This document shows, in pieces, positions 59,621 to 64,000 of a stretch of 64,000 nucleotides of DNA. The stretch's first letter is position 1, and every line of letters begins with the position of its first letter. This DNA comes from Microbacterium oleivorans (GTDB lineage Bacteria > Actinomycetota > Actinomycetes > Actinomycetales > Microbacteriaceae), in the NCBI RefSeq assembly GCF_013389665.1, contig NZ_CP058316.1, positions 1,178,001 through 1,242,000 of the forward strand, written 5' to 3'. A program made the translations under genes and the position numbers. The notes under the pieces were generated by a model, which was not told the DNA's origin, made no database searches, and saw only the letters and a program-made list of their open reading frames with translations.

Positions 59621-59696
59621 CGCGGCGATCCGGGTGGTCCCGGGCATCGGCTCATAACCGATCGCGTTGCGGGTTCGACTCCCGCCGTCGCGTCCA
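59621..59696 (+). tRNA. tRNA-Met(CAT)-like gene, probable integration site
   Basis: The sequence folds as a tRNA. Acceptor CGCGGCG (59621-59627) pairs with CGTCGCG (59686-59692) with one G-T. The D-stem is CCGG/CCGG with a short loop containing GG. Anticodon stem ATCGG/CCGAT encloses CTCATAA (anticodon CAT at 59653-59655), T-stem GCGGG/CCCGC encloses TTCGACT, and CCA is encoded. The short D-loop and A at position 8 are unusual, so it may be a degenerate or element-borne copy. The C1:G72 pair and the AT-containing anticodon stem argue against initiator tRNA. An integrase gene begins 77 bases later. Confidence 0.6.
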
Positions 59697-59755: not shown

Positions 59756-59784
59756 TGGACACACTGTGGACACTATTTGGACAC
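59756..59784. repeat. three 11-bp-spaced TGGACAC repeats at the integrase end of the element
   Basis: TGGACAC occurs at 59756, 59767 and 59778, an exact 11-bp pitch that puts all copies on one face of the helix. They are between the tRNA-like gene and the integrase stop (the last copy runs into the gene) and are candidate integrase arm or Xis sites. Confidence 0.65.
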
Positions 59785-60933
59785 AACCGCAGCAATGCGT
59801 GCCTGATCGAGGGCCATCGAAACGGCATCGATGTCGTCATCGAACAGGTCCGCGTACACGTCCAGCGTCATGGCCGCGGAGGCGTGTCCGAGGAGCTTCT
59901 GCACCGCTTTCGGGTTCGCTCCCGATGCGATCGCCAAAGACGCAGCCGTGTGCCGAAGATCGTGGATCGTCATCCGCTCGAGGCCCGCCTCGGCGAGCGC
60001 AGCGACGAACCACGAACGTGACGCACCCGACGTGCGCGGCCGCTGCAGGTGCTCGAGACCACCACCAAACAGGAGCGCGTCACGGGGCTTCCCCTCGCAC
60101 AGCTTCGCGATCGGCATCACGAGGAACGGCGGGAAGCTCACCGACCTGCGCTTGTGCGTCTTCGGCGTTCCGACGTGAACCTCAGCGCCGACCCTCACAG
60201 CGTTCTCCGACACCGACAGGCGTCGCCGCAGCGTGTCCACGTCACGCACCCTCAGCCCCGTGAGCTCACCCCACCGCATGCCCGTGTACGCCGCCACGTA
60301 AATCACCGTCGCCCGCTCCGCGCTCCCCCGACCCGCAGCAGCCGCCAGACGGTCCACCTCCGCGTGCGTGAGGTACCGGTGAGGCTTCGACACCTTCCGG
60401 GGCAAAGCGACGCCCCTGGCAGGGTTGTGCGCGATCCTCCGGTCCCTAACCGCCACCTCGAGCACCGATGCCAACGCGTTGTGCGCTCGCGTCACCACCG
60501 TCGCGCTCTTCGGGCGCCCCGCGAGTGCCTCGCCGCGCTTCCCGGGCGTCCGCGACTCCGGCGCCGTCCCGGCCGACAACTGACGCACCCACTCGACGAC
60601 CGCCGAATGCCGCACAGCCGACACCTGCACCACACCCCACCGCGGTTCCACGTACACGCGCCACGCATCCGAGACGGCCCGGAACGTCGACGGTTTCAAC
60701 GTCGCCGACTTCGACGCCAACCAGTCTCGACCCAGATCACCGACCGTCACCCGCGCGCTCGCCGGGTCGATGAACTCGCCCCGCGCGATCGACACGTCGA
60801 CGTTGGCCAGGAACAGCTCAGCGTCCCGCTTCGTTTTGAAGCCCCGCTTTGACGTCTGCTTCCGCTCTGGCGTCCGGTATCGAACGCGATAACGCCGGCC
60901 TTCGCTCGTCGGGTACGCCTCAACCGTCCCCAT
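59773..60933 (-). CDS. tyrosine-type site-specific integrase
   Basis: 386 residues. The N-terminal AP2-like arm-binding domain (about 1-60) contains RRYRVRYRTPERKQTSKRGF, followed by a SAM-like core-binding domain (about 65-165). The catalytic domain has Arg220 (YTGMRWGELTGL), His324 and Arg327 (HDLRHTAAS), His350 (LLGHASAAMT) and the nucleophile Tyr360 (DVYADLF). All active-site residues are present, so it should be functional. It mediates insertion at the adjacent tRNA-like site. ATG 60933 overlaps the preceding gene by 14 bases, implying coupled expression with it. Confidence 0.95.
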   Translation of the reverse strand: MGTVEAYPTSEGRRYRVRYRTPERKQTSKRGFKTKRDAELFLANVDVSIARGEFIDPASARVTVGDLGRDWLASKSATLKPSTFRAVSDAWRVYVEPRWGVVQVSAVRHSAVVEWVRQLSAGTAPESRTPGKRGEALAGRPKSATVVTRAHNALASVLEVAVRDRRIAHNPARGVALPRKVSKPHRYLTHAEVDRLAAAAGRGSAERATVIYVAAYTGMRWGELTGLRVRDVDTLRRRLSVSENAVRVGAEVHVGTPKTHKRRSVSFPPFLVMPIAKLCEGKPRDALLFGGGLEHLQRPRTSGASRSWFVAALAEAGLERMTIHDLRHTAASLAIASGANPKAVQKLLGHASAAMTLDVYADLFDDDIDAVSMALDQARIAAVVSK

Positions 60934-61561
60934 CTTGTGGCCTCTCTCGAGGGGCGGTCGCATCCCGAGCCGCCTGCACAACGCGTCGAACCAGGGAAGC
61001 AAGCTCCGCCTCTGACACGACGTGGTCGAAGTAACCAGCTCGGCGCGCTCGAGCTATCCAGTTGGCAGCGGTCCGCCGCTGCATCCCGAAGAACTCTGCC
61101 ACGGCTTGGCCAGGGTTGTCCGATGCGATCTCGGCCGACCTGTAGAGCATCGCGATGTTCAGCAGCGAGACAGCGTCGGGCACGGCGAAGTCGCTGATCG
61201 GGGACGCTTCGCGTGCGGCCGAGAGAGCATCGACTGCATCCGACCTCACCATCCGCTCGGCTGGCTCCATCGCGCTCAACGCGGTGGCCCTGACGACTTC
61301 CTGCACGCGCACGGTGCGCAGAAGAGCACCCGTAATCTCGGGCCCGTCGAGCGGAGCACGCAGGTCGAGTGCGGTGAGCCGGTAGCGGCCAGCATTCGCG
61401 CTGTACTCGATCGAGACATTCGCCTCGATCACCTGGCCCTCGGCCAGCGCGGAAACGGTGTCCGGGCCGAGCCGCCATCGTCCGCGCACGACTGGGAAGA
61501 CGCGCAATCCAGGAGCGACAGTGATCGGCTCGCCCTCTCGGTCGATGTTCTGCTCAGGCAT
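60920..61561 (-). CDS. unknown protein with a C-terminal helix-turn-helix-like segment, candidate element repressor
   Basis: 213 residues, not assigned to a family I can name. Residues about 10-75 are beta-rich (FPVVRGRWRLG, ANVSIEYSANAGRYRLTALD). Residues about 80-150 are helical. About 155-185 reads AVAEFFGMQRRTAANWIARA, which looks like a DNA-recognition helix pair. It lies between the integrase and a divergent control region with two inverted repeats, the position of an immunity repressor in many prophages. It overlaps int by 14 bases, so repression of its promoter would also silence int. Confidence 0.65.
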   Translation of the reverse strand: MPEQNIDREGEPITVAPGLRVFPVVRGRWRLGPDTVSALAEGQVIEANVSIEYSANAGRYRLTALDLRAPLDGPEITGALLRTVRVQEVVRATALSAMEPAERMVRSDAVDALSAAREASPISDFAVPDAVSLLNIAMLYRSAEIASDNPGQAVAEFFGMQRRTAANWIARARRAGYFDHVVSEAELASLVRRVVQAARDATAPRERPQDGDG

Positions 61562-61660: not shown

Positions 61661-61873
61661 ATGAACGACGACGATCTTCTCACCCCGGCCGAGGCGGCGA
61701 AGCTGCTGCGCATGAACGTGCCGGCGCTCGCTCAGCTGCGCTACCGAGGCGGGGGCCCTGTGTTCCGTCGACTCACTGCCCGCACGATCGTCTACAAGCG
61801 CCGCGACCTCATGACGTGGGTCGAGAGCTCTGGCCACACCCGCACCGACGCCCCGCTCAAGGCGACGGCGTGA
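61661..61873 (+). CDS. AlpA/excisionase-like small DNA-binding protein
   Basis: 70 residues with one MerR-like winged helix: LLTPAEAAKLLRMNVPALAQ then YRGGGPVFRRLTARTIVYKR and DLMTWVESS, the layout of AlpA and phage Xis proteins. It is encoded just right of the divergent promoter. Such proteins regulate int and direct excision. AAAGGGA before ATG 61661 is a fair ribosome site. Confidence 0.85.
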   Translation: MNDDDLLTPAEAAKLLRMNVPALAQLRYRGGGPVFRRLTARTIVYKRRDLMTWVESSGHTRTDAPLKATA

Positions 61874-61938: not shown

Positions 61939-62694
61939 ATGACCACAGTAGACCACCGGACCGACACCTCGCGGTACGTCGACGCGCTTGTCTCCACGCC
62001 TTCGAACGGCACGCCCGAGCCCAGACGACTTCACCTCGCGCCCACCGCGAGCATGGTCCGCCTGCACGACGCGATCTCCCCTGAGGAGCTTCGAAGCCTG
62101 CCCGTCCGCGTTTCCCACACCACCAGTCAGCTCGGAGTCCAGACGTACAAGGTCGGCGCGCACGACTCCTACCGGGAAGCATGGGGGCTTCGCGTCAACC
62201 TCGACCCGCGACACCGCGCGATCATCATCGTGCTCGCTCACGGCGCCACGACCGGCGACCTGCAACGTGCTCGGGAAGCGGCCCGGCTCATCCGTGACGG
62301 ACAGAAGTCGGACGGCTGGGAAGAGGTCAGTCTGCCTCGGGAAGGACGCGCCCTCGTGTACAAGCTCACCCTCGAGTCTGGCGACGTCGCGACAATCGAC
62401 CCCGACCCGGTGCAGCCCTGCACCGAGGAGGGCTGCGCTGAGGTGTGGCACGGCATCCACGACCGCCACATCATCGCTCAGGCACATCGCTCGTTCGGCG
62501 ACCTCAGCACCTACCAGATGGAGGTCTCGAAGCCCGTCATGGACGACGACGAGGAGGGGTACCGTCTCGTCGTCTACATCGACGACTTCGCCGGCGACCA
62601 GGTCGCTGCGGCCGCTCTCATCGCCGATCTGCAGCGCATGGGAGAGAAGCTGAACCAGGCGCGCGCGGCGGGTCGGCTGAGCGGCGCGGCATGA
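61939..62694 (+). CDS. unknown mobile-element protein
   Basis: 251 residues. I do not recognise a family. Residues 30-160 form alternating strands and helices (YREAWGLRVNLDPRHRAIII, then GATTGDLQRAREAARLIRDG). A CTEEGCAEVWHG stretch (about 157-168) has two cysteines and a histidine that could bind metal. The C-terminal helix is DFAGDQVAAAALIADLQRMG. GAGAGG precedes ATG 61939. Its stop overlaps the next ATG (ATGA), the first of a chain of three coupled junctions. Confidence 0.75.
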   Translation: MTTVDHRTDTSRYVDALVSTPSNGTPEPRRLHLAPTASMVRLHDAISPEELRSLPVRVSHTTSQLGVQTYKVGAHDSYREAWGLRVNLDPRHRAIIIVLAHGATTGDLQRAREAARLIRDGQKSDGWEEVSLPREGRALVYKLTLESGDVATIDPDPVQPCTEEGCAEVWHGIHDRHIIAQAHRSFGDLSTYQMEVSKPVMDDDEEGYRLVVYIDDFAGDQVAAAALIADLQRMGEKLNQARAAGRLSGAA

Positions 62695-63170
62695 CTCACG
62701 TCGGCGCTGAGCTCCTGTGGCTGCGCTCCCGCGCCCGCCTGACACTCGAGGAGGCCGCACGGGCAGCAGGCGTGACTCCGGGTCGCCTCGCTGCGGTAGA
62801 GAGCGGCGTGGAAGCAATCACGCCCGCCAGCGCGGTCCGGTTAGCCGGCTCGCTTGTCGAAGTCATCCGAGCACGCTTCGAAGCCGCACAGCCCGCCCCC
62901 TCCCTTCCCCCTGCCGACCTCGCCGCGATCCTGTTCGTGCTCCGTGAGAACGGACCCAGCACGCACAACGAGATCTACGCCGCCTACGTCCAAACGACCG
63001 CGCACCCCCGCCTCGCCGAGGACTGGGTGCGATGGGCCGTCAGCCACCTCCACCAGGCCGGCTACGTGACGTACGACTCCATCGCCGGCCGCGGCCCTCA
63101 CGGGCGACGAGCACGCCGATGGATGCTCATCACACCCGCCTCCCCCGACCCGATCGATGCGACGGCATGA
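62691..63170 (+). CDS. XRE-like helix-turn-helix plus winged-helix protein
   Basis: 159 residues. The N-terminus reads LLWLRSRARLTLEEAARAAG then VTPGRLAAVESGVEAITPAS, an XRE-type helix-turn-helix (about 5-60). Residues about 75-145 form a second, winged-helix unit (FVLRENGPSTHNEIYAAYVQ, then VSHLHQAGYVTYDS). Two DNA-binding units suggest an element regulator or replication accessory. Both ends overlap neighbours by ATGA, so it is translationally coupled on both sides. Confidence 0.8.
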   Translation: MTHVGAELLWLRSRARLTLEEAARAAGVTPGRLAAVESGVEAITPASAVRLAGSLVEVIRARFEAAQPAPSLPPADLAAILFVLRENGPSTHNEIYAAYVQTTAHPRLAEDWVRWAVSHLHQAGYVTYDSIAGRGPHGRRARRWMLITPASPDPIDATA

Positions 63171-63247
63171 CGAACAGACACATCCCCTCGGCGAGCGCAC
63201 GAGCGAACGCTGCGCTCGCCGAGGTCTGCACGCCGGAGGAGTCATGA
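63167..63247 (+). CDS. 26-residue coupled ORF before the initiator-like gene
   Basis: The ATG overlaps the preceding stop (ATGA) and the TGA overlaps the next ATG region. The peptide MTNRHIPSASARANAALAEV and a short acidic end contain one cysteine and no known motif. Its coding sequence carries the GGAGGA ribosome site of the next gene, so its main role may be translational coupling. Confidence 0.5.
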   Translation: MTNRHIPSASARANAALAEVCTPEES

Positions 63248-64000
63248 TGGGCGCAGGTCTCGCGCTACAGGCGTTCGCCGTCGCCGATCGCGTCGGCCTC
63301 GGGCACCCTGCCACCCGCCTCTACGTCTACATGGCGACGGTGGCGATCGACAGCGATGCTGCGCCCGCTTTCTGGGGCGGGCGCGATGCCCTCGCCCAGG
63401 CGATCGGTAAGAGCGGCGGCGCCGGCCATTCTGCGGTGAAGCGAGCCATCCAGGAGCTCACGACGGCCGAGCTCATCACCGCTGACAACCAGGCCCACCG
63501 AGGCATGTCCGCGAGGTACCTCATGCGCGACGGTGCAGGCAGCTCACTCACCCCCAAAGGGGACCGCTCAACGACCCCCTTGTTATCCACACTGGGGACC
63601 GCTGAGCGGTCCCCTTCCTCCGAGAAAGGGGACCGCTCAGCGACAGAAAGGGGACCGCTCACCGGTCCAAAGGGGACCGCTCACCGGTCCCCCGAGGAGG
63701 AAGAGGAAAAAGAGGAGGAGCTACGCGCACGCGCGACCCCCACCCTTCCCCTCGATGGCCTCGACTCCCCCGCTTATCCGACGCAGTGCGAGAAGCACCA
63801 GAACGGACCGAACTCGTCACCGTGCTTCGCGTGCGGTGAGGCACGCAAAGACCACGCGCGCCGTGACGGCGCCGCCCGTCGACGCGCACGCCCCGCCGCA
63901 CTCAAGCACCGCATCATCGACGGCCGCCGCGTCTGCGACAACCGCCCCCACGTCCCCACCCGTGACGGCAGTTGCATCAACTGCGAGATCCGACCCGACG
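63247..64000 (+). CDS. replication-initiator-like protein with an internal iteron array, cut by the window end
   Basis: 251 codons to the window edge, no stop. Residues about 1-95 are a winged-helix domain (LYVYMATVAIDSDAAPAFWG, then IGKSGGAGHSAVKRAIQELT and ARYLMRDG), like the DNA-binding N-termini of phage O or plasmid Rep proteins. Residues 100-150 are a low-complexity linker translated from DNA repeats in three different frames. A very acidic run (EEEEEKEEE) follows, then two cysteine/histidine units (CEKH...CFAC and CDNRPH...CINC) that look like zinc ribbons. The Rep assignment rests on the fold and the embedded iterons and DnaA box. ATG 63244 is an alternative start. Confidence 0.7.
   Translation, partial: MGAGLALQAFAVADRVGLGHPATRLYVYMATVAIDSDAAPAFWGGRDALAQAIGKSGGAGHSAVKRAIQELTTAELITADNQAHRGMSARYLMRDGAGSSLTPKGDRSTTPLLSTLGTAERSPSSEKGDRSATERGPLTGPKGTAHRSPEEEEEKEEELRARATPTLPLDGLDSPAYPTQCEKHQNGPNSSPCFACGEARKDHARRDGAARRRARPAALKHRIIDGRRVCDNRPHVPTRDGSCINCEIRPD
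63556..63690 (+). repeat. iteron-like array inside the initiator-like gene
   Basis: AAAGGGGACCGCTCA occurs at 63556, 63625, 63647 and 63669, the last three at exactly 22-bp pitch. A partial copy GGGGACCGCT at 63594 forms the left arm of a perfect 10+1+10 palindrome (63594-63614). Because 22 is not a multiple of 3, the copies are read in different frames, so conservation is at DNA level. Confidence 0.9.
63583..63591 (+). promoter_or_regulatory. consensus DnaA box
   Basis: TTATCCACA is a perfect match to the bacterial DnaA box consensus and lies between the first iteron and the 21-bp palindrome, supporting an origin of replication here. Confidence 0.75.

Follow-up and report, generated by a model that had tools for sequence, protein, structure and literature searches.

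A probable iteron-type replication origin inside the initiator gene of an integrative element of Microbacterium oleivorans

The gene that starts at position 63244 of the window, meaning the whole 64,000-nucleotide stretch of Microbacterium oleivorans DNA analyzed here, carries repeats, a palindrome, and a DnaA box in the middle of its coding sequence. What are they for, and is it the DNA or the encoded peptide that matters? The initial annotation had proposed a replication origin embedded in an initiator-like gene of a mobile element. Judged from sequence comparisons, the stretch is very probably the origin of a 9.4-kb integrative element, placed inside the element's own initiator gene. The best reading is a self-encoded, iteron-type, and probably DnaA-assisted origin that would work like those of pSK41 RepA_N or lambda O.

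Architecture of the element and of the repeat-bearing gene

The existence of a mobile element is confirmed by 26-bp att repeats, one of them in tRNA-Met, together with an integrase and an xis-like gene. It spans ~9.4 kb and comprises the integrase, an HTH regulator, the xis-like gene, an XRE-type gene, the iteron gene, small ORFs, a β-rich protein, and a DprA-like gene with its neighbor. Its features are, in window numbering:

59621-59696, tRNA-Met(CAT), host of the attL core
59669..59694, + strand, attL core of 26 bp at the 3' end of tRNA-Met(CAT), from repeat match
59773..60966, - strand, tyrosine integrase (PF00589, E 7.1e-23)
61661..61873, + strand, excisionase-like HTH_17 gene (PF12728, E 4.2e-8; phrog_66, E 7.5e-5)
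62691..63170, + strand, XRE-type HTH gene directly upstream of the initiator gene (PF01381, E 3e-5)
63244..64000, continuing to 64041, + strand, predicted iteron-bearing initiator gene, 265 aa (from frame and start, relatives, PHROGs)
63244..63540, + strand, predicted winged-helix N-terminal domain, ~residues 1-99 (AlphaFold2 and fold matches)
63787..64000, continuing to 64041, + strand, Cys/His-rich C-terminal domain, common to relatives
69095-69120, outside the window, attR core of 26 bp, identical to the attL core and 9426 bp away from it

The distance from the tRNA to the right flank is 453 bp in genome G529 and ~2.9 kb in G536, and the shorter gap is consistent with insertion of the element in the window genome. 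No exact empty site was observed; among the matches listed (149 genomes), none extended more than 27 bases across the junction. Among 10 element proteins searched with Pfam and 10 with PHROGs, neither a helicase loader nor a primase was recognized, and the element proteins searched gave no match to capsid, portal, or terminase.

Past the window, the DprA-like gene (L005:9291-10957, window numbering 67291-68957) matches PADLOC ShosA with an E of 5.7e-67, and the gene overlapping it shows a weak adenine phosphoribosyltransferase match below the cut-off (E 0.0041). ShosT is a phosphoribosyltransferase, and the two genes are perhaps a ShosTA-like anti-phage pair carried as cargo. Repetitive β-rich proteins that appear tail-like by eye are encoded in the window element (L005:7425-8264) and in that of Microbacterium dauci (L015:12763-13395). 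A phage portal gene lies in the same genome away from the element (G000:C1:687595-688560) and perhaps belongs to a resident prophage able to act as helper.

The repeat-bearing gene ends 41 bp beyond the window. Its N terminus, which the initial annotation had called a winged helix, is predicted as such by AlphaFold2 (pLDDT 84.7, pTM 0.80), and the fold matches agree. RepA_N initiator structures (4pt7, 5kbj, 4pta) are among the top matches beside other winged helices, CRP-type regulators match at similar Z, and a putative O protein stands at rank 16 of the viral fold search. With PHROGs, the window protein matches phrog_3171 ("replication initiation protein," E 2.7e-5); P0002 (37%), the one relative found by protein search besides the window protein itself, also matches "replication initiation protein" (E 7.8e-9). 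The lambda O-like phrog_391 is matched weakly by both (E 0.051 and 0.0059, respectively). RepA_N (PF06970) was not found by sequence, the window protein matching 0 Pfam families at E 0.1 and the family being absent from the Pfam hits of seven relatives at E 1. The Cys/His domain is common to P0002, the proteins of M. dauci (L015) and phage Megan (L016), and those of mycobacterial phages. Repeats in the middle of an initiator gene, a trait of RepA_N-type and lambda O-type systems, are present herein by position and frames, and the whole set of sites occupies the linker that separates the predicted winged helix from the Cys/His domain:

63556..63570, + strand, iteron 1, exact 15-mer AAAGGGGACCGCTCA
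63583..63591, + strand, DnaA box TTATCCACA, the sole TTRTNCACA in 98 kb
63594..63614, no strand assigned, iteron 2, full 21-bp palindrome GGGGACCGCTGAGCGGTCCCC, an in-register copy of the unit
63625..63639, + strand, iteron 3, exact 15-mer AAAGGGGACCGCTCA
63647..63661, + strand, iteron 4, exact 15-mer AAAGGGGACCGCTCA
63669..63683, + strand, iteron 5, exact 15-mer AAAGGGGACCGCTCA
63694..63723, + strand, purine tract directly downstream of iteron 5 (purine 0.93, A+T 0.50)

The genome count bears out the four annotated copies of AAAGGGGACCGCTCA at 63556, 63625, 63647, and 63669: the 3.35-Mb genome contains four on the forward and 0 on the reverse strand, all in this gene (reversed-pattern control, 0 and 0). 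The exact 22-bp pitch is true for the last three copies. GGGGACCGCTGAGCGGTCCCC was rightly described as a perfect palindrome of the same unit; it consists of two 10-bp arms around one central base, is one of two palindromes with 10-bp arms in 98 contiguous kb, and counts as a fifth copy in register, with successive unit starts 35, 34, 22, and 22 bp apart. The DnaA box is likewise perfect. Genome-wide, there are 13 occurrences of TTRTCCACA (7 for the reversed-pattern control), and seven of the 13 lie within 1.927-1.977 Mb, a cluster that we infer to mark oriC. Counted from the ATG at 63244, the frame offsets of the four 15-mers are 0, 0, 1, and 2, and that of the palindrome copy is 2. The claim that the repeats are read in different frames and give different peptides thus stands insofar as all three frames are used, but the copies at 63556 and 63625 share one frame and encode KGDRST and KGDRSA. 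The purine tract is a candidate opening region and also codes for the acidic part of the linker; in L015 and L016, 0.77-purine stretches directly follow the array. A strongly A+T-rich opening region was not found at the window array.

The origin may be real and the element nonetheless a relic, having lost excision or self-copying. Such a state would fit the one-contig assembly, in which the repeats occur at a single place and no excised form is visible, but the initiator, integrase, and xis-like genes are open, the 15-mers are exact, and the two att cores match at all 26 positions, leaving the relic little probability.

Selection on the DNA and recurrence of the layout in relatives

In synonymous-codon permutations, which leave peptide and codon usage unchanged, identical 11-mer pairs in different frames were counted. 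The window gene contains 36 such pairs at a shuffle mean of 0.07, and 36 was reached in 0/1000 shuffles. The test set consisted of 20 genes, with 16 further genes as controls. Cross-frame pairs at 0/1000 shuffles were found in 10 of the 20 (the window gene, M. dauci, Megan, six M. abscessus phage genes, and Farewell), and those of L027 were reached by 1/1000 shuffles. None occur in IdentityCrisis, whose repeats are all within one frame, or in Rem711, L008, L010, L011, L013, L022, L025, and L026 (9/20 genes). All 16 controls have 0 cross-frame pairs, and in-frame pairs occur in two of them (one pair in one, three in the Megan ERF gene). Chance and peptide constraint are excluded for the window repeats, and the initial claim of selection on DNA rather than on peptide is borne out. 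Plain tandem expansion is rejected as the source of the array because the units occupy different frames at unequal spacing.

Further relatives were found in M. dauci (L015, the same locus as L053), phage Megan (gp53, L016), and mycobacterial phages and prophages (L017-L020, L030-L032). A genus-wide profile search gave a match in 33 of 366 genomes, window genome included. The genus is identified as Microbacterium through G503, in which two proteins of locus L101 are 100% identical to those of the M. dauci record. Eight of its 29 new loci (L065, L067, L068, L070, L071, L075, L078, L079) were left out before the count because the match is mainly C-terminal or the N terminus different, resulting in 21 winged-helix genes; L065, with an HTH and a 24-bp in-frame array, may belong with the winged-helix relatives. 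Four further listed profile matches have no locus, and one of them, G624:C34, was used for its neighborhood only.

Nineteen of the 21 same-genus winged-helix genes contain in-gene repeats at 0/300 synonymous shuffles, 17 of them across frames. The repeats of L076 are weak across frames (3/300), those of L058 in frame only, and L061 has a two-copy repeat only; L057 (31/300 shuffles) and L063 (14/300, short open frame) are without a clear array and are counted among the 21. Each relative has a unit of its own sequence, such as GGGCACCCTCAGA in M. dauci, AAAGGTACACGCTCAGCG in Megan, ACGACCGGACACC in several M. abscessus prophages, and ACCGGAACNGCNGTTCC in GD21-1 and IdentityCrisis. Spacings of 22-24 bp rank at or near the top in all but three of the 19 arrays (exceptions L056, L058, L061). 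The arrays of M. abscessus and IdentityCrisis mostly have 33-34-bp spacing, some with one 22-bp step, and Megan and the mycobacterial phages show the same layout as the window gene. The initial annotation had further expected the DNA repeats to be kept and the linker peptide not. The repeats are kept, each with its own unit, but other parts can be less conserved than the linker because similar units encode similar peptides: between the window and Megan proteins, identity is 49% in the linker, 41% in the winged helix, and 33% in the C terminus.

In more distant winged-helix genes, the repeats are located past the 3' end of the gene (L008, L010, L012) or straddle or occupy that end (L009, L011, L013), and in L010 and L011, an A+T-rich stretch and a TGTGGATAA box stand beside them. 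Downstream of the distant gene of L012 (L012:2097-2302), there are dense repeats with an 8-bp step, unlike the 22-bp arrays. The plasmid collection gave no tblastn match for the window protein or P0004; a pattern scan of viral contigs listed 600 stretches and 0 relatives, and one of genome contigs at least one relative among the matches listed. As a family probe, phrog_3171 was rejected: it matched 7/299 genomes, and the proteins examined have other N termini. Of the four of seven such loci tested (L022, L025, L026, L027), three are without repeats and L027 has a 5-bp tandem. Farewell (8-bp tandem, cross-frame, 0/1000 shuffles) and Rem711 (no cross-frame repeats) were excluded, having mainly the C terminus in common. 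A CCCGA 5-bp tandem is seen in L068, L070, L071, L075, and L027, which encode different proteins with a similar Cys/His C terminus.

DnaA-type boxes are enriched in these genes. Within the 21 same-genus genes, TTRTNCACA occurs 10 times in 14,220 bases, compared with once in 60,067 bases of flanks. It is present in nine genes, absent from the other 12, and lies at most 60 bp from the array in six of the nine. Mycobacterial relatives carry TGTGGACAA, TGTGAACAA, TGTGAATAA, or TGTGTATAA in the linker; in the Megan gene, no DnaA box was found. The box of L072, L076, and L080 is found 88-101 nt beyond the array; because it codes for a VDN or VDK motif, a peptide reason for its presence is possible in these three genes.

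Carriers were checked in 20 of the 33 genomes at 21 places, including the window and a second place in G624, without G705 and G696; these places are not the 21 genes counted for repeats. A tyrosine integrase lies within 4 kb in 17 of the 21 (not in G629, G645, and G611; 12.7 kb away in G616). The portal family PF04860 occurs in five of the 20 genomes and in none within 20 kb of the places, some contigs ending sooner. Hence, these genes appear to reside mostly in small integrative elements in Microbacterium, and in phages in Mycobacterium, where genes of the same type lie near DNA polymerase III β clamp or DnaQ genes. In the wider L008 locus (L047:7345-9328), a distant winged-helix relative is followed by ParA and a small gene; the surroundings contain, by eye, transposase-like ORFs, and the region looks like an integrated plasmid backbone. 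For the M. dauci element, a search for att sites found none.

Could the repeats instead be operators, at which the winged-helix protein binds its own gene as a transcription regulator for operon control, without any replication? This is unlikely given the phased mid-gene arrays with DnaA box enrichment, the β clamp, DnaQ, or ParA genes near relatives, and the PHROGs initiator assignments, even though CRP-type regulators match the fold at similar Z and HTH genes lie directly upstream. Initiators often also autoregulate, which would suit this explanation as well.

Co-variation of unit and winged helix

Across 25 genes (L057 and L063 left out), winged-helix similarity and unit similarity show a rank correlation of 0.44 (0/5000 permutations), and the C terminus a weaker one of 0.27 (also 0/5000). 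Restricted to 15 non-redundant genes, the two correlations are 0.45 (4/5000) and 0.20 (358/5000), with rank-regression weights of 0.40 and 0.13, respectively. Two M. abscessus phages exemplify this: the C termini of GD08-2 and GD21-1 are 97% and their winged helices 49% identical. In 60-bp bins, their DNA identity is 0.35-0.77 at nt 61-540, covering winged helix and array, which ends near 527, and 0.90-0.98 from nt 541 to the end; the first 60 nt of the GD21-1 gene have no counterpart in GD08-2. Their units are related, both containing ACCGGA, yet different (local score 9/26). Between IdentityCrisis and GD21-1, whose winged helices are 64% and C termini 55% identical, the unit is nearly the same (19/26). 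As a correlation, the unit thus appears to follow the winged helix better than the C terminus, as expected if the winged helix reads the unit.

The same co-variation bears on whether the repeats are a parS-like partition site or a packaging recognition site within the coding region. Direct repeats act as parS in mycobacteriophages, as described in PMC7157519, and one distant relative adjoins a ParA gene. Nevertheless, with the unit co-varying with the winged helix of its own gene, DnaA boxes present, and neither ParA nor ParB recognized among the searched element proteins (Pfam, PHROGs), such a role is very improbable.

For the iteron-type origin, the following mechanism is proposed. The winged helix would bind the iteron units and, at the palindrome, would do so as a dimer. 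The main pitch corresponds to about two helical turns, so that neighboring bound units would align on one face of the DNA and stack at this spacing. Host DnaA would join at TTATCCACA, the adjacent purine tract would open, and the Cys/His domain, together with DnaA, would recruit host helicase and primase. The linker peptide would be largely a by-product of the DNA. Integrase-driven excision would create a circle able to copy itself, as the initial annotation had suggested.

On balance, it is likely that these genes form a widespread, unnamed actinobacterial initiator class, in which winged helix and in-gene iterons are one cassette exchanged between phages, satellite-like islands, and plasmid-like elements. 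A single exchange would alter origin specificity and incompatibility together, and the common Cys/His domain and the DnaA boxes would keep the tie to the host machinery. The profile matches in Microbacterium (33/366 genomes) suggest self-copying by small integrase-bearing islands. Probable origins are marked in phages whose genes are annotated merely as "helix-turn-helix protein" or "hypothetical," and the class offers many natural protein/DNA pairs for learning winged-helix site choice.

Comparison with known replication systems

A description of this initiator family was not found in searches of one open-access library. The window element may be akin to phage satellites of the PICI type, having an integrase, an xis-like gene, and att sites and no match to capsid, portal, or terminase among the searched proteins; one β-rich protein could be tail-like. 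PLE, a satellite of a Vibrio cholerae phage, is described as integrated, with its own RepA of RepA_N fold and semi-palindromic iterons (PMC7145576), and thus combines integration, initiator, and iterons as in the window. The PLE iterons, however, are reported as non-coding, its integrase is a large serine recombinase, and its replication needs phage ICP1.

The RepA proteins of the actinobacteriophages Miko, Rachaly, and Jeeves have an N-terminal HTH, and the origin was placed within or beside repA (PMC7157519); they are likened to the window protein by description only. In that account (Wetzel et al.), the origin was suspected within or beside the mycobacteriophage repA, with no repeats identified there and repeated motifs not found between the tail genes and parS-L. 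These proteins are larger (320-350 aa), and the prophages are extrachromosomal with parABS (PMC7157519).

In lambda, four iterons are bound by O dimers to form the O-some (PMC3985674), and ori-lambda is part of the O gene (PMC7157519). The window gene likewise carries its iterons in its own coding sequence. In contrast to lambda, the window element has no recognized helicase loader gene among the proteins searched, a DnaA box lies inside its array, and clear sequence kinship was not seen beyond the weak phrog_391 match.

Compared with the RepA_N family, the window protein has no Pfam RepA_N match and its C-terminal domain is Cys/His-rich. DnaA boxes are present here, whereas none were detected in staphylococcal plasmids according to the review PMC5703833. 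Furthermore, the window units are G+C-rich and without the central poly-A tract described for most RepA_N iterons (PMC7145576). For pSK41 Rep, the same review describes a winged-helix N-terminal domain of ~120 aa that binds four boxes in the middle of its gene, a deletable linker, and a separate C-terminal domain; with its predicted winged-helix domain, mid-gene repeats, linker, and separate C-terminal domain, the window gene follows this plan. In pPR9, N-terminal domain and origin were naturally swapped over a common C-terminal domain (PMC5703833). The window gene would accordingly represent an actinobacterial counterpart of the RepA_N in-gene origin.
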